A stretch of 54,956 bases of DNA, from the IMG/VR virus record IMGVR_UViG_3300006805_000037, positions 1 to 54,956 of that record, one strand, 5' to 3'. Below the pieces are notes generated by a model. That model saw only the letters and a list, made by a program, of their open reading frames with translations, was not told the DNA's origin and did not search any database. The position numbers and the translations under genes are program-made. Source of the DNA: a virus. Shown piece after piece: positions 1 through 51,865 of the stretch; positions within the stretch are counted from its first letter, which is position 1, and each line of letters begins with the position of its first letter.

Positions 1-552
1 AAACATGAGAACGTTCTGGTGTTCTCGCAAGGGACTACGGTTCACGAAAGCCAAAGCGCAATGCTGATGAACTTCTATCCGCAAGGAGTTCGCCAGCATG
101 AAGTCAATCTTCGCGCGAATAATAGCAGGCGGGCAAGCAATACCGTGATGGGCAAGCGGCCTTCGCATGAAGCCGACTTCAAGGTGAGCGCCGCCGGGTA
201 TCCTTCTTCAATGCTGAAGTTTGCGCGTGAGAAGAAGCTAGAGCATCCGACCCAGAAGCCGGTCGATATGTTCGCGTACCTCATTCGCTCCTATACGAAG
301 CCCGGCGATACTGTGATGGACTTTTGCATGGGCAGCGGAACGACTGCAGTCGCCGCACTCAGCACTGGCCGCTCATTCGTTGGCGTTGAAAAGGACCCCG
401 CGTATTTCGCGATAGCTGAGCGCCGGGTCCGTGAGGCGGCCGGGGGCTTCTTCGGCGGCGGCGTCAAGGTCAATACCGGGCTTGCCCCCATTTCGGCCGA
501 CCGGGTGTTCCGCCGGGCCGGTTCCAGCCGGGTCCCCCGGAACGGCCGCTAA
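1..552 (+). CDS. DNA methyltransferase, N6-adenine/N4-cytosine type (5' end outside window)
   Basis: The frame is open from the first base, so the N-terminus lies outside the window and 183 residues are visible. The C-terminal half carries TQKP, then KPGDTVMDFCMGSGTT, then FVGVEKDP, which is the S-adenosylmethionine-binding region (motif X, motif I FxGxG, motif II) of site-specific DNA methyltransferases. The catalytic (D/N)PPY motif is not visible and should lie upstream, so the order is catalytic motif before SAM site, as in the beta class that includes CcrM. It would methylate phage or host DNA, to protect against restriction or alter gene control. It is the only clear plus-strand gene and converges on the minus-strand genes to its right. 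The last 35 residues are glycine and arginine rich and run into a GC-rich non-coding element. Target sequence unknown. Confidence 0.87.
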   Translation, partial: KHENVLVFSQGTTVHESQSAMLMNFYPQGVRQHEVNLRANNSRRASNTVMGKRPSHEADFKVSAAGYPSSMLKFAREKKLEHPTQKPVDMFAYLIRSYTKPGDTVMDFCMGSGTTAVAALSTGRSFVGVEKDPAYFAIAERRVREAAGGFFGGGVKVNTGLAPISADRVFRRAGSSRVPRNGR

Positions 553-15023: not shown

Positions 15024-15581
15024 TCAGGAGTCGTCGCTCAGATTGGTCCACTTCATGAGGCCGAACTTGCCCGCGAGTTCGGGCGGGTCGATGTCAGCAG
15101 GGGCAACCAGAACGTCGCCTGTGATTTCGACTTCGTTCCACTCTTCAGAGATGAGACCGAACTCACCATTCGGCAGGAACGACACGTTATACAGGTCGAC
15201 CGTGATTTTAGGGCCGACTTCGTTGGTGCCTTCAAACTGAAGCCATCCCTCAACGGCGTTTTCGCTGAACAACTCCATTTCAGCGCCACCGGCCGCAGCT
15301 TCGTCGACCGTGCCGAGTAAGGCCATGGCGACGTTCTGCGGTGTGATTTCGTCGAAGGTCAGCACGACCGTGCATTTCTTCTCGATGATCACGACCTTGT
15401 CCTTCTTCTTCGTGCCTTCGCGCGAAGAGAAGTGCTCAAGTGTGGTCATATCCGGCGTTACGGTCAGCGCCGAAACGTTGCCCATATCGCGGAAGGTCAG
15501 TGAGCCTTTGCGCTTGAAGCGAACGATGCCCTTGCCGACTTGGTAGTTATCAGTGTTGGGGGACTGTAGAGTGGGTGCCAT
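15024..15581 (-). CDS. Major tail tube protein
   Basis: This 185-residue protein is beta-rich (YQVGKGIVRFKRKG, TVVLTFDEITPQNVAMALLG, GPKITVDLYNVSFLPNGEF) and acidic at both ends. It lies between the terminator-type protein and the chaperone pair, the usual place of the tube gene. AAAGGA precedes the ATG. The phrases 'ITPQNVAMALLGTV' and 'FLPNGEFGLISEEWNEVEITGDV' recall tube proteins of HK97-type siphophages. Confidence 0.8.
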   Translation of the reverse strand: MAPTLQSPNTDNYQVGKGIVRFKRKGSLTFRDMGNVSALTVTPDMTTLEHFSSREGTKKKDKVVIIEKKCTVVLTFDEITPQNVAMALLGTVDEAAAGGAEMELFSENAVEGWLQFEGTNEVGPKITVDLYNVSFLPNGEFGLISEEWNEVEITGDVLVAPADIDPPELAGKFGLMKWTNLSDDS

Positions 15582-22365: not shown

Positions 22366-23334
22366 TTAGCTCGGATTGTCTCCGGTGATGCCGTCGACGT
22401 AGCGCACCGCACCGGGGCGGCGAACTTCGACACCGGCAACGCGGAAGATGCCGGGAATGTCGAAAATCATCGGGCCGGTCTGCCACACGGGCAGGAAGCG
22501 ATGCGGCATCGGAATGTGCATCTTGATAACCGCCGGGTCGCGGCGGTACACCACCATGCGGCCGACGCCGCCAACGCCTGCCGTTTCCAGACCGCGAACG
22601 CCGCGCAAGGTGAGCGGGCGGCCGGTCGTGAACGTGTAGACGTTGTTCTTCAGCAGAAACTCAATGATGGTCATTGAGGTATCGGGGATGCGCTTGGACG
22701 CCAGCAGATTGAGCGCACTGATTGGCATCAAAATGGTATCCGCCATTTCAACGGTCAGGGACGCGGTGTAAACGCCGGTCAGGGCGTCGTTCACGTCCTT
22801 GAGGATTTCGTCCGCATCCTTGTCGTCCCAGTCGGTGTTGCCGCCGGTAACTTCGGCGGCGTTCACGACCGTTACGCCGGGGTAGTTGATGATGCCATTG
22901 AGGTTCTTCGTGGCATCCCCCCGGAAGGCGAGGCTGTCAACGAATTCCTCGTACGCGCGCCGGGCCGCCGACGCGCGGTCGGTGGTCAGGTTGGTGCCGG
23001 GGATCATCGACGCAACACCGAGTTCTTCCAGCGTGTAGCGGTAGCCGATGTCAGCCATTTCGATGGCAACTTCGTGGCGGGCGCGCTCAACGTCCGCAAC
23101 GTGCAGGTCCTTGCCGTAGTGGTTGAACCATCCGGCTTTGCCGGTCTTATCGGACGAGTAGTAGGTAACCGACTTGGCCCACTCGTTTGCCGAAGTATCG
23201 ACCGGGATGAGGTTCGGGTACTGAATATCCGGGTATTGGATTTCGTACACCTGAGCCTCGATGTAGGCGGTTTGCGATACCAGAAAGCCAAGGGCCTGCT
23301 GGGCATCGACCATGTGGTGGCGACGTGGTGACAT
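22366..23334 (-). CDS. Major capsid protein, DUF2184-type
   Basis: The protein of 322 residues starts MSPRRHHMVDAQQALGFL and matches DUF2184-type HK97-fold capsids: VYEIQYPDIQYPNLIPVD, VERARHEVAIEMADIGYRYT, LAFRGDATKNLNGIINYPGV, a LTVEMADTILMPISALNLL spine helix region, and a C-terminal PMIFDIPGIFRVAGVEVRRPG. It follows the protease/scaffold and decoration genes and is followed by a strong terminator, fitting high expression. AAGGAAG precedes the ATG. Confidence 0.88.
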   Translation of the reverse strand: MSPRRHHMVDAQQALGFLVSQTAYIEAQVYEIQYPDIQYPNLIPVDTSANEWAKSVTYYSSDKTGKAGWFNHYGKDLHVADVERARHEVAIEMADIGYRYTLEELGVASMIPGTNLTTDRASAARRAYEEFVDSLAFRGDATKNLNGIINYPGVTVVNAAEVTGGNTDWDDKDADEILKDVNDALTGVYTASLTVEMADTILMPISALNLLASKRIPDTSMTIIEFLLKNNVYTFTTGRPLTLRGVRGLETAGVGGVGRMVVYRRDPAVIKMHIPMPHRFLPVWQTGPMIFDIPGIFRVAGVEVRRPGAVRYVDGITGDNPS

Positions 23335-24039: not shown

Positions 24040-24666
24040 TCAGTGGGTCGCCACGGCTCCCGCAGTCTTCCACGCCTCAGTCAGCGCGCTATCGCGCTTT
24101 TCGAGAGCGGCGTCACGCTTGTCGACAATCGAGTCGCCCTGCACAAAGCCCGGCGCTGCGAACGAGCGGCGTGCGTCAAGCACGGCGCTGGAGTCGGTTG
24201 CCTTGACATCGGCCGTCAGGGTGGCGAACGAGATGCTGACCTGTTCGTCAGTCCAGCCCTTCGCGGCCTCGCCCAGCTTCTTGTCGACGACCTGCCGCTT
24301 GATTTCGGCATCGGTCTTGCCGTCCACGACCAGCGCGTCCCCGAGAATGGCGCGCGCCTTGCCGGAAACCACAGCCCGGTCAGCGACCAGCGCGTCGAGT
24401 TTGGCCGGGGTCAGCTTGGCGTCTTCAACCGCCTTCTTCAGCGTTGCCACTTCAGCGGTGAGGCCGTCGCGTGCGGTGGTCAGTGTGGTGATGGTCGCCG
24501 CGTCTTCGGCTTCCTTCTTCGCGTGGTCGGCCTTCAGTGTGTCCGCAAGGGCCTTCGCGTCCTTCAACGCTTGGGCCGCCGCGTCGAGCGCGCGCTGAAC
24601 GATCTGAGCGTTCTGGTCGGTCGTGAATTCGACGCTGACGCCATCCACAATAATGGTCTTCGGCAT
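24040..24666 (-). CDS. Nested in-frame scaffolding protein
   Basis: ATG 24666 (MPKTIIVDGVSVEFTTDQNA) is preceded at eight bases by AAAGGA, a better ribosome site than most starts in the window. It would produce the 208-residue C-terminal part of the protease gene as a separate protein. That part is helical with long coiled segments (AQALKDAKALADTLKADHAK). The arrangement copies lambda C/Nu3 and other phages where scaffold is made in excess from within the protease frame. Seen directly: start and ribosome site. Function: inference. Confidence 0.7.
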   Translation of the reverse strand: MPKTIIVDGVSVEFTTDQNAQIVQRALDAAAQALKDAKALADTLKADHAKKEAEDAATITTLTTARDGLTAEVATLKKAVEDAKLTPAKLDALVADRAVVSGKARAILGDALVVDGKTDAEIKRQVVDKKLGEAAKGWTDEQVSISFATLTADVKATDSSAVLDARRSFAAPGFVQGDSIVDKRDAALEKRDSALTEAWKTAGAVATH

Positions 24667-25473
24667 TGGTGTAGTCCTTTCTTCGGTTTTGAAATCAGAA
24701 ACTAACTTCAGAAGAGAGTCTATAGCGTACGCGACCGCTTCGTCTCCGCTGTCAAAGGCTTCCTTGCCAGATTGCTCAAGCAAGGAAACGTAGACCTTTT
24801 CGCCATCGCCAATCGGATAACCGGGGGCGATATACGAATTCTCTTTTTCCGGCTTGCCGGTCTTTTCGAACTTGCCGTCCGAAATCAGTTTGACTGCTGC
24901 GGCAAAACTATTGCCGTCCAGCATCGTGAGCGGTGCCTTGTCGCCAACAGCAAGCCGGTAGCCGCCGCGTGCGAACTTCACGAGGGCGATGTGATTGCCT
25001 CTAATTTGGGTTTGAATGGCGTCGTACTGCTCGCCTGACGGAGTCTTGCCGTCCTGAAAAACGATGTCACAAGAATAGCCGACGCTCAGTTGCTTCTTGC
25101 CCGCCTGAATGTCCTTGATGGCGTTGGCGTCCATGAATGACATGGGAACGCGCAGGCAATCGCCGTCACGCGCAACCTCGTCGCCTGACTGGCCGATTGC
25201 ATAGTCCTTCCAGTTATCGGCAGTGACCGGCACAGGCGGATGGTCGTTTGTGAGCGGACGGTGCGCGAGTGACGCCATGGCGTCCTTGTTGAAGACTTCG
25301 TCTTCCGGCCGGTACACCCTGACAATCGCTTTATCCTTCATGCCCACTTCGCTGCCCCGGTAAAGTTGGATACCAGTGCGGGCAACACGCGGGTTTGCAA
25401 CAAGGTATCCATCTTTCGTAATGCGGATACCGGCGTCGTCGAAGGAAATGCGGTCAACGAGTTCCAGCTTCAT
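24040..25473 (-). CDS. Prohead protease (DUF2213) fused to scaffold domain
   Basis: The 477-residue protein has an N-terminal DUF2213 region of about 190 residues: DRISFDDAGIRITKDGYLVA, RPEDEVFNKDAMASLAHRPL followed by TNDHPP, and NAIKDIQAGKKQLSVGYSCD, then GNHIALVKFARGGYRL. DUF2213 proteins are capsid maturation proteases related to other phage prohead proteases. After a linker, residues 270-477 are a long alanine-rich helix typical of scaffolds. An internal ATG with its own ribosome site would make the scaffold alone. GGAGATAGG precedes ATG 25473. Confidence 0.85.
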   Translation of the reverse strand: MKLELVDRISFDDAGIRITKDGYLVANPRVARTGIQLYRGSEVGMKDKAIVRVYRPEDEVFNKDAMASLAHRPLTNDHPPVPVTADNWKDYAIGQSGDEVARDGDCLRVPMSFMDANAIKDIQAGKKQLSVGYSCDIVFQDGKTPSGEQYDAIQTQIRGNHIALVKFARGGYRLAVGDKAPLTMLDGNSFAAAVKLISDGKFEKTGKPEKENSYIAPGYPIGDGEKVYVSLLEQSGKEAFDSGDEAVAYAIDSLLKLVSDFKTEERTTPMPKTIIVDGVSVEFTTDQNAQIVQRALDAAAQALKDAKALADTLKADHAKKEAEDAATITTLTTARDGLTAEVATLKKAVEDAKLTPAKLDALVADRAVVSGKARAILGDALVVDGKTDAEIKRQVVDKKLGEAAKGWTDEQVSISFATLTADVKATDSSAVLDARRSFAAPGFVQGDSIVDKRDAALEKRDSALTEAWKTAGAVATH

Positions 25474-25477
25474 GTGC

Positions 25478-26212
25478 CTATCTCCAATACCGGCGTATCC
25501 ACGGCGACTCCATCAGGGACTCGCGGTGCCACGGCTTGCGTGAGCCATGGAAGAAAATGATGCGGCTGTTCTTGTCCAGAACGGCAAGCTTCCGAATGTG
25601 GCGCGGGTAGCTCACCACGGCAGGATAGCCGAAGCCGTCGCAGTTCTCGCGATGGACCAAGTTCATGCTCAGCCAAGACTGGTCCGAGCCAAGCCAGCCT
25701 GCCCTGAAAGCCTGACGCGGGGAAACTTCCGCGTTGAAGTCCGTCCATATCTCGGAAAGGTCCCCGGCCGTGAACATCTGAAGAGAGCCGTTGAACACCT
25801 TCGGGTGATGCTGACCGGGCAGCGCCCAGCCCATGAAGCGGTAGCTCTTCGCTGCCTCGATAAGCGGGCGAAGCTGGCCGGTTATGAGCGCATCCAGATC
25901 GATGCTCATAATTCGCTCGCCCGCCTTCATGCCCATGGCAGTTTGCGTCGGCGGGTCGTACAGCTTCAGCCGCCGATAGCATGACGGAAGATGATGCTTT
26001 GTTGCGTTGGCAAGGTCGTCGTGATCGGACCAAAGCGGGAAGGTTTCGCATTCCACGCCGCGCGGTTCGTCCGTCACACAGACGATGCGATACCTCAAGC
26101 CCGCAAGATTGCGGTGTAGCATCGCAGTCATGACGTTGACGTGTTCCGCTCTGTAGACTTCGCGGGCGTTGGGCTGAACCCATTTCCAGAGTACCACATG
26201 GAGAAGCGTCAT
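25478..26212 (-). CDS. Glycosyltransferase-like protein (244 aa)
   Basis: ATG 26212 (MTLLHVVLWKWVQ) overlaps the upstream stop as ATGA and follows GGAGAGGG, so it is preferred over the start at 26227. The fold resembles GT-A enzymes: RIVCVTDEPRG, then RIMSIDLDALITG with a DxD pair (D105, D107) that would bind metal and nucleotide sugar. A later KVFNGSLQMFTAGDLSEIW and NSRIIFFHGSRKPWH complete the pattern. It is the last gene of the modification cassette and ends four bases before the protease gene. Sugar and acceptor are unknown. Confidence 0.78.
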   Translation of the reverse strand: MTLLHVVLWKWVQPNAREVYRAEHVNVMTAMLHRNLAGLRYRIVCVTDEPRGVECETFPLWSDHDDLANATKHHLPSCYRRLKLYDPPTQTAMGMKAGERIMSIDLDALITGQLRPLIEAAKSYRFMGWALPGQHHPKVFNGSLQMFTAGDLSEIWTDFNAEVSPRQAFRAGWLGSDQSWLSMNLVHRENCDGFGYPAVVSYPRHIRKLAVLDKNSRIIFFHGSRKPWHRESLMESPWIRRYWR

Positions 26213-26940
26213 ATGACCCTCTCCCAAGCAAACCGTATCGGATTGATTGCTTTGTAAGGCGGCAGCGACTTCTTTCGCATCAGCGCCTTATTGAACGCTA
26301 CATGATGAACTGAACCCTTGCGGCCCCAGTCTTTCGTGTTCGCGTCGAAGCAATCGTGCGTACGATATACGGTTGTCGAGAAAGCGTCGGTCTGCTTCTC
26401 AAGTAGCCCCGCGCCTTGAGCGCAGCGGCGGAAATTCCCGTCCGAGCCATAGAAGCCAGCGAAGTCTTCGTCATACCCGCCCATTGCCCAGAAGTCCGCC
26501 ACCTTCATGAGGTAGCTGTTGGGGTGAGGCCGGTCCAGCGACTCGCCAGTTACTAGCTTCTGGTTCGGCATGTAGTACGCTTTTGGCTCCGGGTCAATCA
26601 TGAGCATGGCGGCGGCTTCTTCGGCGGGCAGAATGTGGTCCGCATCCGTCATGAAAACCCAGCGTGTTTCCGCATGTTTCATAGCCAGATTGCGCGCCCC
26701 GTCTTGGTTCCAAGGGATATTGGGGACAACCCGGAAAAGGCTGAACCGAAGCGTCGAGGGCAGGCCGCCGTAGTCCCGGTAAGCCGCCTTGGCCGGGCGC
26801 TTCGGTGACCCGTCGTCGACCACGATAAAGCGCATGCGCGCCCTGAGGGCTTGGGGGTAGCGCTCCCATTCCTGAAAGTGGCGCATCAGCATATCGGCGT
26901 TTTCATAGTACGCCATGACAAAAGTACACACAGGTATCAT
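26209..26940 (-). CDS. Family 2-type glycosyltransferase (243 aa)
   Basis: The protein has typical GT2 motifs: RFIVVDDGSPKRP (DDGS at residues 42-45) for nucleotide binding, NQDGARNLAMKHAETRWVF, and MTDADHILP with the DxD metal site at 99-101. Later GGYDEDFAGFYGSDGNFRR resembles the acceptor-side GGxDExF/(G/E)D loop. It is soluble, with no membrane segment. It is coupled by ATGA to the genes on each side. Together with its neighbours it could glycosylate virion proteins, DNA or a host surface polymer. Confidence 0.85.
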   Translation of the reverse strand: MIPVCTFVMAYYENADMLMRHFQEWERYPQALRARMRFIVVDDGSPKRPAKAAYRDYGGLPSTLRFSLFRVVPNIPWNQDGARNLAMKHAETRWVFMTDADHILPAEEAAAMLMIDPEPKAYYMPNQKLVTGESLDRPHPNSYLMKVADFWAMGGYDEDFAGFYGSDGNFRRCAQGAGLLEKQTDAFSTTVYRTHDCFDANTKDWGRKGSVHHVAFNKALMRKKSLPPYKAINPIRFAWERVI

Positions 26941-27662
26941 GATGCAATCTCTGCGAAGTAGCGGGTTTTGAGTGCAGGGCGGTCGTCCTTGTAGCCCAAC
27001 GAGGAATTGCCCTCACCGAACTCATGGTCGACCAAGCATGGAATGCGGTAGCCGATGGCTAAGCCGCGCGAGCGTATCGACTCCGCGACAATGGCGTCGA
27101 CGTTCTTGTTGTACTTTCCGTTTCTCAAGAAAGCATCGAAGGTTCGGCATGCCAACAATCGCTCAGCCTGCGCTCGTGAGAAAACCAAGCACTGCGCCCC
27201 CCACGTTTTCATCCCATGGTTTGCCGGATACCAGCCGGGCATAAGCGATGCATTGCCGCGCATTCGTTCGATGTCATTAGTGACGCGCACCGGGGCATAG
27301 AGCGATAGCGCCCCTGTGCTGGCAAACTTCTTCGATTGCGTGAACGCAGAAAGGTCGTTCATGAGGACTTCGAAGGACCGGCTTGCCCAGCTTATGTCGT
27401 CCTCGCAAATCATAAGCCAGTCGGCGTCACGGCAGTACGCGAATATGGTACGCAGCGCGCGGTGCCAGTTTCGCAGATTGCCGTAGGTCTTTCCGTCATG
27501 CACGACGCCAGCGGTTGCAACGCCCAAAGTTGGGCGTGCCGGTCCATCTGCGAAAACGGTCGTGCTCACCGAAACGAACCCAGCGTCGCGATAGCTGAGG
27601 AGCGAGTCGGTGAGCGTTGGCCGTGGGCGTGGGGCAGTGATTATGCCAGTTGCTATCTTCAC
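26937..27662 (-). CDS. Glycosyltransferase-like protein (241 aa), GTG start
   Basis: The GTG at 27662 overlaps the methyltransferase stop as GTGA and gives MKIATGIITAPRPRPTLTDS; the longer frame to 27842 lies inside the upstream gene and is ignored. The protein has a GT-A look: RPTLTDSLLSYRDAGF, RTIFAYCRDADWLMICEDDI with an acidic cluster at E87-D89, HGMKTWGAQCLVFSRAQAE and a late DAIVAESIRSRGLAIGY part resembling GT25 and similar families. Substrate unknown. It is the first glycosyltransferase of the cassette. Confidence 0.75.
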   Translation of the reverse strand: MKIATGIITAPRPRPTLTDSLLSYRDAGFVSVSTTVFADGPARPTLGVATAGVVHDGKTYGNLRNWHRALRTIFAYCRDADWLMICEDDISWASRSFEVLMNDLSAFTQSKKFASTGALSLYAPVRVTNDIERMRGNASLMPGWYPANHGMKTWGAQCLVFSRAQAERLLACRTFDAFLRNGKYNKNVDAIVAESIRSRGLAIGYRIPCLVDHEFGEGNSSLGYKDDRPALKTRYFAEIAS

Positions 27663-28261
27663 AGCGTTACCCACCAGTATGACGCGCTCTTGAGATAGCC
27701 GTCCTTGACGCCCTTGGGCGGAAACTTCTTGACGTGATGCTCGGCTTGGATGCCGAACTCTTCCTTCACCGCATCCATGACGCCCGGCCACAGGTAGTCG
27801 TCGCCGCTCATGACGCCGCCGGGCTTCATCTTCGGAAACCACGCCTTGATGTCAGCCTTGACCGCTTCGTAGGAATGGTCGCCGTCAAGCATCAGGAAGT
27901 CAACGCTGTGGTCAGCGAAATGTTCGGAAGCCTCGACACTGCTCATGCGCATCGGCTTGATTAGATGCTGAACCGGAAGCGTGTTCTTCAGGAACGCCTC
28001 GTACGGCTGCACGGTCAGGTCCTTGTAGTGCTTGGTGTGGCGCAAGTCAGGCCCGCCGTCAGTCCATGGGTCAACGCAGGCGAAGCTGATTGGCTTCTTG
28101 CTGTTGAAGATTTCAACGCACATGAGCGCCGCCGACCGGCCCAGCCACGAGCCTACTTCGACGAATTGCGATGGCGTATCGCTGGGAGCGCGCTTAACCG
28201 CGTCGATGTATAACTGCGAGAACGCGGCCCAGCCGGGGATGCTGGCATAAAAATGGTCCAT
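27659..28261 (-). CDS. SAM-dependent methyltransferase (200 aa)
   Basis: ATG 28261 (MDHFYASIPGWAAF) follows GAGGAG at six bases and is preferred. The frame is open to ATG 28357 with a 32-residue, four-cysteine extension that lacks a ribosome site. Motif I is FVEVGSWLGRSA (residues 33-44); SVDFLMLDGDHSYEAVKAD (about 119-137) and MKPGGVMSGDDY (about 145-156) are the other class I landmarks, close to the Methyltransf_24 group that acts on sugars or small molecules. Its place ahead of three glycosyltransferases suggests O-methylation of the sugar or its precursor. Confidence 0.83.
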   Translation of the reverse strand: MDHFYASIPGWAAFSQLYIDAVKRAPSDTPSQFVEVGSWLGRSAALMCVEIFNSKKPISFACVDPWTDGGPDLRHTKHYKDLTVQPYEAFLKNTLPVQHLIKPMRMSSVEASEHFADHSVDFLMLDGDHSYEAVKADIKAWFPKMKPGGVMSGDDYLWPGVMDAVKEEFGIQAEHHVKKFPPKGVKDGYLKSASYWWVTL

Positions 28262-28365
28262 GGGGTACTCCTCAAGTGTTGGGCAAAGCGAATGCTTGCC
28301 TACGCAGATAGGAAAGATGCAGTCATCAAAGGCGCAAGGTTCAGGTCCGTGCGGCATGGCATTGA

Positions 28366-28566
28366 CTAGCGCCAGTCGTCAGCGCTGCCGAAGGCAAGCA
28401 AGTAGCCTTGTGAGACCACAGTCAGCCACAGGAAGGCAGACGCGACCGTTAGGCCAAGAATTGCGCCGACGATTGCAATAGCTGCGGCGGCGTACATGCG
28501 GTTCTTTTTGTTGGCCCAGTCCTGAGCGGCTAACCAAGCACGAACCCGATTTAGGAAGTCAGCCAT
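28366..28566 (-). CDS. Small single- or double-span membrane protein (66 aa)
   Basis: The product begins MADFLNRVRAWLAAQDWANKK and continues with a 30-residue hydrophobic part (AAAAIAIVGAILGLTVASAF, then LWLTVVSQGYLLAF). One long or two short membrane helices are likely. It lies between the ATP-grasp-like and methyltransferase genes, so it may tether the modification enzymes to the membrane, but nothing in the sequence proves this. Confidence 0.68.
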   Translation of the reverse strand: MADFLNRVRAWLAAQDWANKKNRMYAAAAIAIVGAILGLTVASAFLWLTVVSQGYLLAFGSADDWR

Positions 28567-28613
28567 TTCGGCCCCCTGTTGTTTGCTACGGAAAGAACGT
28601 TACGCAAAAGCTG

Positions 28614-29504
28614 TTACGCGGCGGCCTCGTGCAGTTCGCCCATGCGGCCTAGCTCGATTTCCTTGAGCAAGACCTTCCACACGTCAACGCCGGTCTGGTC
28701 GGTGACAACATCGCAGTCGATGAAATTGCACGCGGCGAAGGCTTCCATGGCCCAATGCGCTGAGCATTCGAGAACGTACCAGCGGCCGTTCTCCCGGTCG
28801 CGCACCAAGTCCGCAACCGCCCAAGGAAGCGACTCGCGCTCGAAGAAGCGGCCGGAAAAAGCCAGCGCTGATGCTATCTCGTCGTCGACATAGTTGATCG
28901 GCTCGGCGCGCCTGCGTTCGTCATTGTACCGGCGAAGCACCATGCGCTTTCGGCCGATAGAAACGACGCGCAGGTCGTACTCGTTATTCGGGATAACTTC
29001 CTGCCACAACAGGTACCCGATTTGCTTCTGGCCGTACCGGGCCTTCAGGCCACGGTCGCTGAACGCAAACTTGATTTCAAGCTTGGCCGCGTCGTACGTC
29101 TCAACGAGCCTGACGTTGTGCGAATTCGTGCCTTCGACCGCCTTGGAATAGAACGGAAAGCAGTTTCCGCTTTCAATGAACGAGCGCGCCGAATGCGGTG
29201 TGTGAAAAACGTGCGTGCGCGGCATCCACCGGCTCAAGTGGCGCGCTTGCGCCATCTTGTCGTCGAACAGTTCGGCCGACCGCATGCCCGGTATCAGCAG
29301 CAATTCGCCGCGCAGGGATAGCTTCTGCATCATGCGTTTGTGGGCGGTTCGCACGCCGGGGTGGTGGTGCATGTGCACGAATGCCACGCCTTCGTCAGGC
29401 ATGCCGGGGTCGTCGAACATGATGGGGTCGTGCCCGCCATCCTTGGCCGCAAGGTACAAGCCCTGCCCCCAATAATGCGCGTCGTCGAAACACCAAATTT
29501 TCAT
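28614..29504 (-). CDS. ATP-grasp-like enzyme (296 aa)
   Basis: ATG 29504 (MKIWCFDDAHYWGQGLYLAA) starts the protein; the longer frame runs into the upstream gene. After an N-terminal domain it shows ATP-grasp-like features: FYSKAVEGTNSHNVRLVE (lysine and glycine-rich loop), LLWQEVIPNNEYDLRVVSIG (hinge plus the EYDLRV strand) and WAVADLVRDRENGRWYVLEC (metal-binding D...E strands). ATP-grasp enzymes join a carboxylate to an amine or thiol through an acyl phosphate. It opens the modification cassette. Substrate unknown; the fold call is moderately sure. Confidence 0.65.
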   Translation of the reverse strand: MKIWCFDDAHYWGQGLYLAAKDGGHDPIMFDDPGMPDEGVAFVHMHHHPGVRTAHKRMMQKLSLRGELLLIPGMRSAELFDDKMAQARHLSRWMPRTHVFHTPHSARSFIESGNCFPFYSKAVEGTNSHNVRLVETYDAAKLEIKFAFSDRGLKARYGQKQIGYLLWQEVIPNNEYDLRVVSIGRKRMVLRRYNDERRRAEPINYVDDEIASALAFSGRFFERESLPWAVADLVRDRENGRWYVLECSAHWAMEAFAACNFIDCDVVTDQTGVDVWKVLLKEIELGRMGELHEAAA

Positions 29505-29508
29505 AGCC

Positions 29509-30594
29509 CTATCTTTCTTCCAAGGTTGTGATGCTGTCAGTGGTGGTCTTCGTATCTGGGGCAAAGCGCGCGTCCCTTGCCGGAACGATAGTACAGCGGC
29601 AACGCGGGTGCGCCGGAATGAGTGACCGCGCTTCGTTGATGGTGTACGGCCCTTCGTCGGCTATATCCTCGCAGATAGGGCACACGTTGTCGTCACCAGC
29701 GGTTCTGACGCGGACCAGCTTCAGGCGGTTCAGCCGGGCCTCTTGCTGTTCGATGCGCCAAATGGTCGAAGCGCTTGGCGTTCGCGTCCTGCTGATGCGC
29801 GAGCCGAAGCCGCCGCCTGTTCTGCCGGTGATGCGGCGCTGCTTTCTGGCGTCGGCGGTCAAACCGGGGCTTGGCCGGGTTTCGGGTATCAGGTTGACGC
29901 GCGATATGCCCGCAAGTTCGTATACGTCCATCGCGGCTTCGTTGAACGAACGCACCACCATGAACTCGGAAATAGCCTTCACGCGCGCAATGCCGATTGC
30001 CTCAATGCGCCCGAATATGGCGCGAAGTATTACGCCGGGCTGCTGATCTGACAGCAGCCCATTCGCGACCACGCGCACTACCTGTTGCGATAACGCTTCA
30101 GCCACGCCCTGAAGTTCGACGTAGGTGAATTTGTGAAGCGTATTGATGCGCTCTTGCCCGGCCAGCGGGTGGAATGCCCCGGCCAGTTCTTGCGGGACTT
30201 GCGAGCGGCCGAAGGCTTCCCCCTTGGCGTACGCCGCTGCGATAAACGGCTTGAGGTATTCGCCGGAGTTTTCAAGCACGGTGTTTTGCAGCAGATTGTC
30301 GAACATGCGTTGAAACATATCGACTTTGCTAGCGCCGCCGGTCGCTATTTGCGCGGCCATCATTGACGACATAACGCTCTTGACGTTCAGACCAAGAAAG
30401 TCATTGCCGATAAGCTGCGCCCTGAGTATCGGGCGCAGGCCGTTGAGTTTGATGACCATGGCCGAAAGCATGGCCCTGCGCAGCGTTCTGGTCCCGGTCG
30501 GGTCTAGGCTACTCAGCGCCGCGTCCGAATAGACCTTTGAGCAGCATGAGCATCCAGCGTCATGCAGCATGCGCCCTTTATAAGCTAGGCTCAC
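29509..30594 (-). CDS. Minor head (head morphogenesis) protein, SPP1 gp7/Mu F type, GTG start
   Basis: The GTG start at 30594 overlaps the portal stop as GTGA. The 361-residue protein is helical up to about residue 270 and ends with the family hallmark: VRVRTAGDDNVCPICEDIAD, then YTINEARSLIPAHPRCRCTI. Cys and His residues of this part probably bind zinc. Proteins of this type are minor head components bound to the portal and protect or eject DNA. Portal-then-minor-head gene order is as expected. Confidence 0.85.
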   Translation of the reverse strand: MSLAYKGRMLHDAGCSCCSKVYSDAALSSLDPTGTRTLRRAMLSAMVIKLNGLRPILRAQLIGNDFLGLNVKSVMSSMMAAQIATGGASKVDMFQRMFDNLLQNTVLENSGEYLKPFIAAAYAKGEAFGRSQVPQELAGAFHPLAGQERINTLHKFTYVELQGVAEALSQQVVRVVANGLLSDQQPGVILRAIFGRIEAIGIARVKAISEFMVVRSFNEAAMDVYELAGISRVNLIPETRPSPGLTADARKQRRITGRTGGGFGSRISRTRTPSASTIWRIEQQEARLNRLKLVRVRTAGDDNVCPICEDIADEGPYTINEARSLIPAHPRCRCTIVPARDARFAPDTKTTTDSITTLEER

Positions 30595-32675
30595 AACTTG
30601 GTTTCCTTTGCGTCGGTCTCGCCGTTGAAGCCATCAGGCTTAAGTTCTTCGAATATCTCGGGACCGAACATCAGCACCCCTTGATAAGGCTTCACCTTGC
30701 TAAGCTTGTCCGGGCCAATGCCAGCGTAGCTGATTGTAACGTGCGGGTTGTAGTCTTCGAAGTCGAACGAGCACCCCATTTCCCGCAAACGCATATTGCG
30801 GTAGGTGAGCGCATCGCTTCCGAACACCAAGGCTTCGGCCTTGCCTAGTTGCTCCATGACGCGCGGGCCGCCCGGCTTCACGGTCAGGTTGCCCTTGTCG
30901 TCCTCGCCCCAAGATGCATCCGACATTTTGATCCAATCAACTTCAACTTTGGAAGCTATGAGCGTGACGTGCAGGTCTTCAAGAATGGACGTGAAGCCCT
31001 GCGACTTTGCCCATGCCTTCAGGTCGTCGATGTTCAGAAGCTTGCGGCTGACGTACAGCGTGCGCGGCGTGGCGTCGTCAAGCCGCTTCTTCATGGTCCT
31101 GAACATGCCCGGCTTGAAGCCGCTGTCTCCAACGGCGCGCTTGCCCGGCGTGCGCGTCATCCGCTTTGGCGTGGCCTTCGTTGCCGGGTCATTGCCGCCG
31201 CCTTCCGGGTTCATCTGATCCGGGTTGGCGTTCGGGTCGTTTTCGGAGCGCGCGGCGTTCGGGTCGTTATTGGCCGCAGCGGCAGCAGCGGCAGCAGCAG
31301 CTTCTTCTTGGGCCGCAGCGCCCATGCCATCGTACTCTTCAAGTATCTGCTCAAAGCCGGGGTACGTGCCGTCCTCGATAAGCTGGGCCTCACGCGCGTG
31401 CTTGAGCACGACCGGGTCAACAATGTTGGCGTCAACGTCAATCTTGAACGTATCGGCTTTCGACTTGTCCGTTTCCGCTTTTTCCTTTGCGGTCATCTGC
31501 CAAAGGCTGTTCCACAGATAGAACAGTTCTTCTGGATGCTCTCCCATCGCGGAAGGAATGAGCACGTTGTCCAACCGGGCCAGCGCCGGACTGATGTGCA
31601 CCTTCTGGATAGTGCCCACGTTGTCGTAGTAATTGCGCAGGTCGGACTCGCCTGTTGCAGAAAGCCCGGCCGGTGACTGGCCTAGAAAGCGGGTTGCCGG
31701 AATGTCACCGGCACCAGACGCAATGAGCAAGGCCATTTGCATCATGTCAGGCAAGCCTTGAAATGTGACGTTCTCCCGCTGCCATTCTTCTTCCTTGTCA
31801 AGCAAGAGGATTGAGTAGACGCCTTTTATCATGTTGGCGACCGCGAACCGCTTCGTCAGCTTGTCCTCGTACGCCTTGGTTGACATCTGTTCGCTGAGGC
31901 CGGGAATGCGGATGATGTCAACCTTGGCTTCCGCAACAAGCTGCGCCGAAGAATTGGTGACGATACCGGCGCTCTTGATGGCGTCCATGGTCGACTGAAG
32001 GATGCTGTCACCCCAGACTTCGCCATTCGTCATTGCGTCCTGCCGCTCTTCGCCAATGAAGCGCACGACACGCGAAGGATGGAAGCGCGTACCCTGAATG
32101 CCGCCACCGGCTTCAGTGGACGTGTAGGCGCGCTCGTAGTATTCAGGCTCGCCGAAATAGGGCGAACCAATATCCCTGACCATCGGGCCTGTGCTGACAT
32201 CGTAGCGGCTGACGGCGTGCACGAACTGAAGGTCGCCAACCTTCAGTTTGTTGTAGTCCAGTTCGTCGGCGTTCTTGCCCTGATTGACACCAAGAATAAG
32301 CGCGCCGCCGCCGTACAGCCGGGCCTTCTGTATCGCCAGCATGGTCTTGCGCAGAATGCTCAGGCTTTTTTCAAGGTCTTCAATTGCAGTGATAGCATCT
32401 GGGTCACCCTGCCAAGTTCGCCATTCGCGCGTGGCGTCGTACGGCGGGATGTTCACAAGCTTGCGGGCAACCCAGTCGGCGCGATAGGCCGCGTCGGCTT
32501 CAGCTTGCGAGAATACTGGCAAGGTGAAGACGGTTTGCATCATCTTGTCTTTTTCGGTGCCAAGCCCGCTCAGCAGGCCGGTGAGCGTATCGACCATGCG
32601 GCCCATGAAGCCAGTGCCGTCGCCGGATTGCTTCTTGCCTGCGTTGATAGGAGTCGCGCTGTTAGTCTTCGGCAT
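30591..32675 (-). CDS. Portal protein (DUF1073) fused to an Acb1-like two-histidine phosphoesterase
   Basis: The 694-residue protein has a portal region of the DUF1073 type (about residues 40-440): YRADWVARKLVNIPPYDATR, LYGGGALILGVNQG, FHPSRVVRFIGEE, WGDSILQSTMDAIKSAG. An alanine/asparagine-rich linker follows (AAAAAAAAAANNDPNAARSE). The C-terminal 190 residues carry two HxT motifs, LHVTLIAS (H569, T571) and NPHVTISYAG (H645, T647), the signature of 2H phosphoesterases and of Acb1, which destroys cyclic nucleotide signals of CBASS immunity. The fusion is seen directly; anti-CBASS activity is inference. AAAGGA precedes ATG 32675. Confidence 0.85.
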   Translation of the reverse strand: MPKTNSATPINAGKKQSGDGTGFMGRMVDTLTGLLSGLGTEKDKMMQTVFTLPVFSQAEADAAYRADWVARKLVNIPPYDATREWRTWQGDPDAITAIEDLEKSLSILRKTMLAIQKARLYGGGALILGVNQGKNADELDYNKLKVGDLQFVHAVSRYDVSTGPMVRDIGSPYFGEPEYYERAYTSTEAGGGIQGTRFHPSRVVRFIGEERQDAMTNGEVWGDSILQSTMDAIKSAGIVTNSSAQLVAEAKVDIIRIPGLSEQMSTKAYEDKLTKRFAVANMIKGVYSILLLDKEEEWQRENVTFQGLPDMMQMALLIASGAGDIPATRFLGQSPAGLSATGESDLRNYYDNVGTIQKVHISPALARLDNVLIPSAMGEHPEELFYLWNSLWQMTAKEKAETDKSKADTFKIDVDANIVDPVVLKHAREAQLIEDGTYPGFEQILEEYDGMGAAAQEEAAAAAAAAAANNDPNAARSENDPNANPDQMNPEGGGNDPATKATPKRMTRTPGKRAVGDSGFKPGMFRTMKKRLDDATPRTLYVSRKLLNIDDLKAWAKSQGFTSILEDLHVTLIASKVEVDWIKMSDASWGEDDKGNLTVKPGGPRVMEQLGKAEALVFGSDALTYRNMRLREMGCSFDFEDYNPHVTISYAGIGPDKLSKVKPYQGVLMFGPEIFEELKPDGFNGETDAKETKL

Positions 32676-34167: not shown

Positions 34168-34752
34168 TTAGCTGAACCTAGGGGCAGGGCGGCGGCGGTA
34201 TTCCTTCTTGTTCGACCGCAAGACCTGATTTCCGCCGAATGACATAGTGGCGTGGTGCGCGCAGTAAGGCGAAGGCCGCGAGTATCCGCCCTTGCTGCAT
34301 CTCTGGTTTCCGCAAACGATAGTCACGCGTCCTTCGGCCATGCCGACCGGCCACATGCACTGATGGTCACAAGCGTCCAGATACGGAACGTTATTGGCGG
34401 TTGGCTCGTACGGTGGCTCAGGCTTGGGCTGCTGACTGGCGACTGCCTTCGCCTTGCGTTCGATTGACTGAGCCTTCTGCGCCGGTCCACGCGGGCGCAC
34501 CATGCGCATTTTAGGGCCGTTGTGCCCGAACTGCATCACCGACGCGCGCGGGTACTTCTTGTTCAGCCCCATGCGTGTTGCTTTCGCTACCACTGCGTTT
34601 CTGGTGACCCCGGCGTTGGGATACGTGCGGTTCAACTCCATGGCTATTTCTGAAATCCTCAGATAGTTGGGCGTGCCGGGCATTGGCGCATACAATCGCA
34701 CAAGGTCCTTTTCCATTTGCTCAGGCCAGACGTACCGCTTGGGCGCGCTCAT
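34168..34752 (-). CDS. GcrA-like transcription regulator
   Basis: The 194-residue protein begins with a helix-turn-helix region, RISEIAMELNRT (about 32-43) and VTRNAVVAKATRMGLNKKYP (49-68), which closely follows the GcrA pattern '(I)A..L...TRNAVIGK..RLGL'. After a linker, the C-terminus holds CDHQCMWPVGMAEGRVTIVC and then SPYCAHHATMSFGG, matching the GcrA tail 'C.WP.G.....F.C......PYC..H'. GcrA binds RNA polymerase sigma70 and methylated GANTC promoters in alphaproteobacteria. Position between small-terminase candidate and TerL suggests control of late genes or takeover of host cell-cycle transcription. Confidence 0.85.
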   Translation of the reverse strand: MSAPKRYVWPEQMEKDLVRLYAPMPGTPNYLRISEIAMELNRTYPNAGVTRNAVVAKATRMGLNKKYPRASVMQFGHNGPKMRMVRPRGPAQKAQSIERKAKAVASQQPKPEPPYEPTANNVPYLDACDHQCMWPVGMAEGRVTIVCGNQRCSKGGYSRPSPYCAHHATMSFGGNQVLRSNKKEYRRRPAPRFS

Positions 34753-50987: not shown

Positions 50988-51800
50988 TTACAGAATGGCT
51001 TTCTTCAGTTGCTTGTTATCCTGAAGGAACTTGATGCTATGCCGGAACTCGGTGCGAATGCCGGATACCGTTGTTTTCGAAACGGTGACCTTCGCGCCCA
51101 GCTTCTTGATAATCGCGTCGACCGAGGCCGCCGGGGTTTCAAGAATGATGGCCTTGATTTTGTTCTTCAGGGCCGCCGGAACAGTTTCTTCAGCTTCAGG
51201 TTCGTCGGCTTCTTCTTCCTTGCCCCGGCGTGAACCGCGCGCCGGTGGTTCATCTTCTTCTTCGTCCTTGCCGCGCCGCGAACGGGCGGGCGGTTCATCT
51301 TCTTCTTCGTCCTTCGCGCGGCGTGACCGCGCTGGGGGTTCGTCATCTTCTTCGTCCTTGGCCCGGCGGCTTCTTGCCGGGGGTTCGTCATCTTCTTCGT
51401 CACGGCCGCGACCGCGACCGCGCGCTGGCGGTTCATCTTCTTCTTCGTCCTTGCGCGAACCCCGGCCGCGTGCTGGGGGTTCGTCATCTTCTTCGTCCTT
51501 CCGGCCGCGCGAACGCGCCGGTGGTTCGTCGTCTTCAGCCGCCGCGCGGCGGCTACGCGCGGGCGGTTCATCTTCTTCCTGCCCGGCGTCTTCGAAGTCC
51601 TCAATATCTTCCTTGTCTTCGACCGCCTGATTGGCAGCGTTCGCCCACTTCTGGGCATCGGCGCTCAGCTTGTTCCACTTCGCATCCGGCAACTTCGACG
51701 CCGCTTCAGCGAGTCGGTCGAGAAAATTCTGACGGCCTTCCTTGCGGCCCTCATCTTCCTCCCCGGTAACCTTGAGAAGTTCGGCTTCAATTTTTGACAT
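50988..51800 (-). CDS. Protein with eight DEPPAR charged repeats and flanking folded domains (270 aa)
   Basis: ATG 51800 (MSKIEAELLKVTGEEDEGRK) follows AGAAAGG. The N-terminal 70 residues are helical and include KLSADAQKWANAANQAVE. Residues about 80-200 hold eight units of the type 'KDEEDDEPPARSRR'. The C-terminal 65 residues look like a winged-helix domain (ALKNKIKAIILETPAASVDA; KLGAKVTVSKTTVSGIRTEF). The repeat resembles that in the ssDNA-binding protein tail. It may bind DNA through the end domain while the repeat gathers partners; this is inference. A strong hairpin follows. Confidence 0.75.
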   Translation of the reverse strand: MSKIEAELLKVTGEEDEGRKEGRQNFLDRLAEAASKLPDAKWNKLSADAQKWANAANQAVEDKEDIEDFEDAGQEEDEPPARSRRAAAEDDEPPARSRGRKDEEDDEPPARGRGSRKDEEEDEPPARGRGRGRDEEDDEPPARSRRAKDEEDDEPPARSRRAKDEEEDEPPARSRRGKDEEEDEPPARGSRRGKEEEADEPEAEETVPAALKNKIKAIILETPAASVDAIIKKLGAKVTVSKTTVSGIRTEFRHSIKFLQDNKQLKKAIL

Positions 51801-51865
51801 CGGTATTACCTTTCTTGCCTTCCTCACAATCGCCTAGCGCCTCATGCGACTAGGCAAACTTTCGC

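Follow-up and report, generated by a model that had tools for sequence, protein, structure and literature searches.

A Glycosyltransferase, Methyltransferase and ATP-Grasp Cassette in a Phage Head Gene Block Is Predicted to Modify Capsid and Tail-Tube C-Termini

Results

A cassette of three predicted glycosyltransferase genes (GT1, GT2 and GT3), a methyltransferase gene and an ATP-grasp ligase gene lies in the head gene block of an uncultivated virus, IMG/VR record IMGVR_UViG_3300006805_000037, as seen in Table 1. The window is the whole 54,956-nucleotide stretch that was analyzed. We consider it likely that the cassette is a late virion-protein modification unit that would O-glycosylate and methylate the C-termini of the capsid and tail-tube proteins, and an aminoacyl mark made by the ATP-grasp enzyme is possible in addition. 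We infer the enzyme activities, the acceptor, the order of steps and any benefit, which might be shielding or particle stability. The initial annotation had proposed a glycan on the virion, on fibre or capsid, or an aminoacyl-sugar mark. A virion glycan is well supported by the conserved place of the cassette within head modules of several unrelated types, by the precedent of the cluster O phages, and by proteins that end in Ser or Glu (capsid) or in Ser (tail tube). The favored targets can be refined to the capsid and tail-tube C-termini, but the fibre link was not supported, as the association with collagen-like proteins was not significant.

Table 1. Features of the window discussed in the text
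Feature	Coordinates	Strand	Basis or remark
ATP-grasp ligase, 296 aa	28614..29504	-	predicted RimK/ArgX-like fold
66-aa ORF with hydrophobic stretch	28366..28566	-	membership doubtful
Class I SAM methyltransferase (Methyltransf_24), sugar O-methyltransferase-like	27659..28262	-	start moved from 28357; PF13578 1.1e-18; TylF 4e-4
GT1, GT-A-fold glycosyltransferase, EDD motif	26937..27662	-	predicted fold
GT2, family-2 glycosyltransferase, DDGS and DAD motifs	26209..26940	-	PF00535 7e-8, over cut-off
GT3, DLD-motif glycosyltransferase, weakly glycogenin/GT8-like	25478..26212	-	phrog_1962 4e-12; glycogenin E 0.002
DUF2213 prohead protease, right-hand flank	24040..25473	-	PF09979 7e-56; phrog_530
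Mu gpF-like minor head protein, left-hand flank	29509..30594	-	phrog_758 4.5e-13
Major capsid protein, predicted acceptor	22366..23334	-	phrog_264 2.7e-94; C-terminal comparison
Major tail (tube) protein, predicted second acceptor	15024..15581	-	tblastn to annotated major tail proteins; C-terminal comparison
Collagen-like protein, 1090 aa	16895-20167		

Layout and enzymes of the cassette

The initial annotation placed the genes between those for the minor head protein and the protease (DUF2213), and each was found on the minus strand where it had been described. The overlaps between neighboring genes are exact (GTGA for methyltransferase and GT1, ATGA for GT1 and GT2, ATGA for GT2 and GT3), and GT3 ends 4 bases from the protease gene, as claimed. 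Some details had to be amended. The methyltransferase most likely starts at an internal ATG at 28262 rather than at 28357, because its relatives begin there in the alignment and GAGGAG precedes this codon. The gene content of the supposed six-gene unit was correct, but the 66-aa ORF, for which there was no Pfam match over the cut-off, had no detectable relative in 95 related loci and, therefore, may lie outside the functional unit. Its product may be a membrane protein.

The solved relatives of the methyltransferase are O-methyltransferases. The three glycosyltransferases appear to be GT-A enzymes, but GT1 has no Pfam match and was recognized by its EDD motif and predicted GT-A fold only. Its AF2 model (pLDDT 82.8) matched GnT-I, POMGnT1, COLGALT1 and others in Foldseek with a probability of 1.0, and no relative of GT1 was found in cultured phages.

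The ATP-grasp product is predicted to have a fold of the RimK/ArgX type, a prediction that is weak by sequence and strong by predicted fold. The best Foldseek match of its AF2 model (pLDDT 84.9) was the ArgX/LysW complex (E 9e-14, TM 0.71, probability 1.0), with RimK next. The similarity to the RimK/ArgX/LysX ligases thus spans the predicted fold of the whole chain at a TM of about 0.7, whereas the sequence match is very weak. The protein also stays under the Pfam cut-off for the R2K clade (R2K_3, E=0.063, 13.9 bits against 26.3), whose members are predicted to be peptide ligases and have been found in phages (PMC4431377). The family profile matched RimK with E=0.004 and aligned at the Q, DxR, D and E motifs, differing in a Ser or Thr in place of the Asn of the RimK EVN motif. 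K83, K121, Q168, D177, R179, D232 and E246 are invariant among five relatives. A tblastn search found no relatives in cultured phages, and a cellular source was rejected. The sole genome match, a 75,335-base contig in a Myxococcaceae MAG, is evidently the contig of an IMG/VR record and, therefore, not a host gene.

Distribution of the cassette

GT3, the most constant cassette gene, is carried by 61 non-redundant contigs and lies directly before the protease in 27 of the 28 that have DUF2213. The initial annotation suggested searching related phages at the same point. In cultured relatives the slot is empty, the gpF-DUF2213 or portal-DUF2213 junction being without such enzymes, and in uncultivated relatives the cassette is conserved and modular, with synteny kept at about 50% identity. 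The description of the cassette as inserted is therefore valid relative to cultured relatives. There was no sign of a recent foreign insertion, since the cassette genes have the same G+C content as the head genes (0.58-0.60). GT3 divergence also tracks capsid divergence (Mantel r 0.74, n=21).

Similar cassettes were found beside unrelated head genes, namely in Tetraselmis viridis virus S20 (PF05065 capsid and Hc1) and in the L160, L148, L103 and L156 types. The presence of these enzymes among capsid genes is less unusual than first claimed. The content varies but is nearly always a glycosyltransferase with a methyltransferase or an ATP-grasp gene; the minimal form is ATP-grasp and GT3 alone (L012, L097, L103, L150). 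Other relatives have a papain-like peptidase (L026, L028) or different inserts in the same slot.

C-terminal signature on capsid and tail tube

The window capsid ends in YVDGITGDNPS (C-terminal peptide RYVDGITGDNPS; terminal Ser codon 22369-22371), and the tail-tube protein ends in KWTNLSDDS (terminal Ser codon 15027-15029). Both proteins thus end in a potential O-linked acceptor, like those of Che8 (capsid NKTGS, tail tube SDGS) and Firecracker, which has a terminal Ser on both. A short extra C-terminal tail was seen in 20/20 distinct termini of cassette-positive capsids, 14 ending in Ser and 6 in Glu, compared to a Ser or Glu end in 0/30 cassette-negative capsids. One cassette-negative contig whose capsid has a terminal Ser (L020) was left out of the capsid counts because it begins inside the protease and the slot is not visible. 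On the tree of the capsid family, about 3 changes suffice to explain the cassette label, so the capsid counts represent few independent events. Tail-tube proteins had a terminal Ser in 17/18 cases, compared to 11/242 control proteins of the same phages.

The Ser signature is not universal among cassette carriers. It is missing from the capsid and tail tube of S20, from L103-type capsids and from L160-type tail tubes. Myrna was considered as further support, but its annotated capsid and tube proteins have no terminal Ser. Two possible links to the ATP-grasp gene were also rejected. The gene is present with 3/6 of the Glu-ending capsids and about half of the Ser-ending ones, so it is not linked to the Glu end, and a small disordered upstream protein (cl7), a candidate acceptor, is also found without ATP-grasp.

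Comparison with known virion glycosylation systems

Cluster O phages carry an O-methyltransferase gene and three glycosyltransferase genes between portal and protease (PMC4351075). Like the window, Corndog (gp35-gp38) and Firecracker (gp33-gp36) encode a Methyltransf_24-type O-methyltransferase and three glycosyltransferase-type products within the head block, with the capsid protease gene following immediately, and the terminal Ser on capsid and tail tube is shared with Firecracker. In hhalign comparisons, in which unmatched glycosyltransferase pairs score about 1% or less, GT1 remotely matched Firecracker gp36 (probability 79, E 1.7e-5) and GT2 remotely matched gp35 (probability 81). Corndog gp38, the glycosyltransferase shown to be needed, was equated with Firecracker gp36 by gene order, and any relation to GT1 would run through this remote match. 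The methyltransferases match at the Pfam-family level only. In contrast to the window, cluster O has a Peptidase_S78 rather than a DUF2213/DUF2184 head, no ATP-grasp gene and no match to GT3. Its host is Mycobacterium, whereas ours is probably a proteobacterium.

Glycans on the capsid and tail-tube C-termini of mycobacteriophages have been reported, as relayed in PMC12619734 and PMC12363180. For the Che8 type (cluster F1), PMC11256854 and PMC12363180 report capsid glycans made by phage glycosyltransferases. Capsid and tail tube end in Ser as in the window, but the glycosyltransferase genes lie near the other genome end in the related Maravista (PMC11256854) and not in the head block. S20 and SI1 share relatives of GT2 and GT3 with a methyltransferase, between the capsid and head closure genes. 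They differ in their HK97-type capsid, in extra GT-D and sialyltransferase-annotated genes, in having no annotated ATP-grasp gene and in the lack of a terminal Ser on capsid and tail tube. The new element compared to known virion glycosylation cassettes is the ATP-grasp gene.

Discussion

In the proposed pathway, cytoplasmic GT-A glycosyltransferases would build a short O-linked glycan, probably from host nucleotide sugars because the cassette has no sugar-nucleotide, lipid-carrier or flippase gene. The acceptor would be the last residue, Ser, of the tail-tube protein; on the capsid it would likewise be the terminal Ser, or a C-terminal Tyr-Glu region in some relatives. The methyltransferase would O-methylate a sugar, and the ATP-grasp enzyme could attach an amino acid or a similar moiety, either at the carboxylate of that same C-terminus or on the glycan. 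It is conceivable, though doubtful, that a single C-terminal residue is modified twice, with the Ser hydroxyl O-glycosylated by the glycosyltransferases and the carboxylate amide-extended by the RimK/ArgX-like enzyme.

Other targets were considered. The cassette could glycosylate a fibre, notably the 1090-aa collagen-like protein, as in the collagen-like surface glycoproteins of Bacillus spores. Such a protein lies between connector and tail genes in the window and several relatives, and in the L170/L171/L192 group collagen-like ORFs immediately precede the cassette. This explanation is unlikely, as among contigs of at least 12 kb collagen-like stretches were present in 15/41 with the cassette and 6/22 without it, which is not a significant difference, and many full cassettes have no collagen-like ORF nearby. 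Surface-polymer loci often hold glycosyltransferases and ATP-grasp enzymes, and together with the possible membrane protein of 66 aa this would fit modification of host lipopolysaccharide or capsule, leading to a superinfection block or serotype change. We find that very unlikely: no GtrA-type flippase was detected in the record (controls positive in 7 genomes), the cassette keeps a fixed place in the head block in several types of head that are unrelated, and it is structural proteins that bear the C-terminal signature.

The variable cassette content and the papain-like peptidase or other inserts in the same slot could also reflect a hot spot for loose cargo, in which a tolerant late-operon site collects unrelated metabolic genes with no common function. 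The near-constant pairing of a glycosyltransferase with a methyltransferase or ATP-grasp gene, the co-divergence of cassette and capsid, and the tracking of the capsid C-terminal signature make a hot spot slightly more improbable still. The least probable explanation is that the glycosyltransferases hypermodify phage DNA against restriction. Phage glycosyltransferases are known to add sugars to modified bases (work cited in PMC12619734), and a partial N6/N4 DNA methylase lies at one record end. However, no thymidylate-synthase-like or C5-cytosine methylase gene was detected in the record, which may be incomplete (controls positive), and the cassette sits in the head block rather than among replication genes.

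So far, glycosylated particles have been demonstrated for a small number of cultured phages, most of them mycobacterial. The spread of the cassette over unrelated head types, together with the Ser/Glu signature, suggests that uncultivated phages commonly modify their capsid and tail-tube proteins at the C-terminus. A terminal Ser on both proteins plus a head-block glycosyltransferase cassette provides a sequence rule that predicts which phages glycosylate and at which residue. The ATP-grasp gene points to a possible second chemistry, of a kind not described for virions in the literature we found. Dual C-terminal modification, if true, would form a new class among the modifications of virion proteins, one found across environmental phages.

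Results

The window is a complete IMG/VR virus record (54,956 bases); it perhaps holds less than the full genome, since an N6/N4 DNA methylase gene (PF01555, 1e-20) is cut off at its end. Six minus-strand ORFs lie between a Mu gpF-like minor head gene and a DUF2213 prohead protease gene. The GTGA, ATGA and ATGA overlaps and the four-base gap between the last glycosyltransferase (GT) gene and the protease gene were found exactly as noted in the initial annotation. The methyltransferase start was moved because the equivalent Met is the start in seven close relatives in the alignment and GAGGAG precedes this ATG. Elsewhere in the record, the portal is fused to an Acb1-like (anti-CBASS, 2H phosphoesterase) domain (PF23474, 4e-30) with two HVT motifs, a fusion also seen in the portals of the cultured relatives Pam3, RHph_TM26 and psageB2, and a long low-complexity protein contains repeated DEEDDEPPARSRR units.

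Features of the window and of related loci or contigs (L-numbers)
Feature	Position	Strand	Remark
DNA methylase fragment	1-552		record's end
Collagen-like protein, 1090 aa	16895-20167		contains repeated segments; connector genes on one side, tail genes on the other
DUF2213 prohead protease	25473-24040	-	flank of cassette
GT3	26212-25478	-	
GT2	26940-26209	-	
GT1	27662-26937	-	
Methyltransferase	28262-27659	-	start revised
66-aa hydrophobic ORF	28566-28366	-	
ATP-grasp enzyme	29504-28614	-	
Mu gpF-like minor head gene	30594-29509	-	flank of cassette
Portal	30591-32675		C-terminal Acb1-like domain
GcrA homologue	34168-34752		adjoins terminase
Acidic/arginine low-complexity protein	50988-51827		replication region
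Papain-family peptidase	L026:7331-8107; L028:5359-6129		in gpF-DUF2213 slot
1593-aa ORF	L025:1726-6507		start matches gpF minor head protein
Small proteins	L012:5826-6194; L013:3667-4134; L016:579-989; L017:5016-5360		upstream of cassette
Cassette	L160		beside portal and capsid of another type
Cassette	L148		beside different capsid and protease
Cassette	L103		beside another capsid and head closure gene
Cassette	L156		head-tail adaptor upstream

In Pfam, the methyltransferase matched Methyltransf_24 (1.1e-18) and TylF (4e-4) and GT2 matched PF00535 (7e-8), while GT3 matched phrog_1962 in PHROGs (4e-12); GT1 and the ATP-grasp enzyme had no match above the cut-off in either database. These two were modelled with AlphaFold2 from small alignments of relatives, and the pLDDT values (82.8 and 84.9, respectively) were adequate for structure comparison. 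The GT1 model resembled GT-A glycosyltransferases such as GnT-I, POMGnT1 and COLGALT1 (probability 1.0), and the ATP-grasp model matched ArgX bound to LysW (E 9e-14, TM 0.71) as well as RimK and LysX; RimK was also the top PDB match of its sequence profile (E 0.004). RimK, ArgX and LysX attach amino acids, either at the C-terminus of a protein or at the terminal Glu of a carrier protein. The top PDB matches were glycogenins for GT3 (E 0.002) and O-methyltransferases for the methyltransferase, among them 6g7d, a mycobacterial sugar O-methyltransferase.

The same point was then surveyed in related phages, a check proposed in the initial annotation. Cultured phages sharing the head module had no such genes in the slot, whereas uncultivated relatives, collected via the capsid protein, GT2, ATP-grasp, GT1 and GT3, carried the cassette there at about 50% identity. 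After overlapping copies were taken out, GT3 was found on 61 contigs; the DUF2213 protease was also visible in 28 of them, and in 27 of these 28 GT3 lay immediately before its gene. The cassette occurs as ATP-grasp-methyltransferase-GT1-GT2-GT3, methyltransferase-GT1-GT2-GT3, ATP-grasp-methyltransferase-GT2-GT3 or ATP-grasp-GT3 alone, and a second type has FkbM and other methyltransferases plus an additional GT. In pairwise comparisons, GT3 diverges in step with the capsid (Mantel r 0.74, n=21) and with the portal (0.65), and ATP-grasp divergence tracks GT3 (r 0.62). Methyltransferase divergence does not track the capsid (r 0.14) and, therefore, single cassette genes are exchanged. The slot peptidase of two cassette-negative relatives belongs to PF00112 (5.6e-15), and the slot of contig L025 seems to be filled by a large C-terminal extension of its gpF-like ORF. 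The small proteins upstream of the cassette in four contigs share the C-terminal motif NTPxIDxxGxKxW and are probably disordered.

Contigs without DUF2213 also bear the cassette, next to other head genes. A search of 50,697 phage records gave just four matches to GT3, which come from two sources: Tetraselmis viridis virus S20/SI1 and EBPR siphovirus 3. In S20/SI1, GT2, GT3 and the methyltransferase are flanked by an HK97-type capsid gene and the head closure gene Hc1. That these enzymes repeatedly accompany head genes of different origin is our chief reason for placing their substrate in the virion. S20 (L200) is listed with an algal host, yet it has a full tailed-phage head and tail module besides its GT/methyltransferase cassette, and its real host is probably a bacterium.

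In cluster O mycobacteriophages, the portal and capsid protease genes flank an O-methyltransferase gene and three GT-type genes, for which a role in capsid modification had already been proposed (PMC4351075). The same arrangement was seen directly in the Firecracker genome. Its methyltransferase is, like that of the window, a Methyltransf_24 protein, and hhalign gave remote similarity of the window's GT1 family to Firecracker gp36 (prob 79) and of GT2 to gp35 (prob 81), where unmatched pairs score about 1% or less. Papers citing Freeman et al. 2023 report that Che8, Corndog and Myrna bear glycans on capsid and tail tube and that GTs, Corndog gp38 among them, are required for this (PMC11256854, PMC12363180); they place the sites at the C-termini of the capsid and tail-tube subunits (PMC12619734).

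Because of this precedent, C-termini were compared. Cassette-negative capsids in the window's family usually terminate with RYxDGI or DGV, whereas cassette-positive capsids add a few variable residues and then Ser (14 of 20 distinct sequences; TGDNPS in the window) or Glu (6 of 20; for example, TPEYE). Ser ended only 1 of 31 distinct cassette-negative capsids (L020), or 0 of 30 with that contig set aside because it starts within the protease and its slot is not visible. Tail-tube proteins also end in Ser after variable residues: 13 of 14 distinct window-type relatives do so, as do 4/4 of a second type. For ten control proteins encoded by these phages the figure is 11/242. Fisher tests gave p ~4e-8 for capsid Ser and p ~3e-25 for capsid and tail tube against these controls, but related sequences are not independent observations, and about three changes on the capsid tree account for the cassette label. 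Independent support comes from Che8, Fruitloop and Firecracker, with terminal Ser in capsid and tail-tube proteins and in none of the further head and connector proteins examined, from TM4, whose capsid and tail-tube proteins lack it, and from the unrelated L148/L144 capsid (PEAS) and tail tube (LGS, QFS), which have it. S20, L103-type capsids, L160-type tail tubes and Myrna are counter-examples.

Discussion

ALTERNATIVES

The observation of the initial annotation is confirmed, and its interpretation is partly supported. It had suggested that the cassette may build a glycan on the fibre or the capsid, or an aminoacyl-sugar mark. The link to the capsid is supported by the recurrent head-gene association and the C-termini. 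The collagen-like protein, which to judge by its place may be a fibre of the neck, head or tail, found no support as a target when tested, and is an unlikely one. Modification of the host surface is less likely still, as it leaves the head-block position and the structural-protein C-termini unexplained. Slightly less probable again is a loose cargo site for unrelated genes. This is partly true, since the slot accepts a papain-like peptidase in other phages, but the recurrent enzyme set is not explained by it. The least credible reading is hypermodification of phage DNA by the GTs, as a search of the possibly incomplete record for partner genes found neither a thymidylate-synthase-like gene nor a C5-cytosine methylase.

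On the C-terminal signature and the precedent, we propose that the C-terminal Ser of capsid and tail tube would carry a short O-glycan made by the GTs; on Glu-ending capsids, it may sit on a neighbouring Tyr or Ser. The methyltransferase would cap a sugar of the glycan, and the ATP-grasp enzyme would join an amino acid or similar group. The cassette has no lipid-carrier or flippase gene and the whole record no GtrA, as would suit direct cytoplasmic transfer, with nucleotide sugars supplied by the host.

GcrA is typical of Alphaproteobacteria, and its homologue (PF07750, 1.8e-15) hints at an alphaproteobacterial host for the window. Contig L199 (RPRB01000006.1), filed under a Myxococcaceae MAG, is a phage that shares its length (75,335) and coordinates with IMG/VR contig 3300009168_000004, and its bin is no sure guide to host. 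The host group of window-type phages is probably proteobacterial. From sequence comparison, we propose that the window holds a mycobacteriophage-type virion glycosylation cassette in a group of uncultivated phages, a variant that also includes an ATP-grasp ligase and for which an acceptor residue is predicted.
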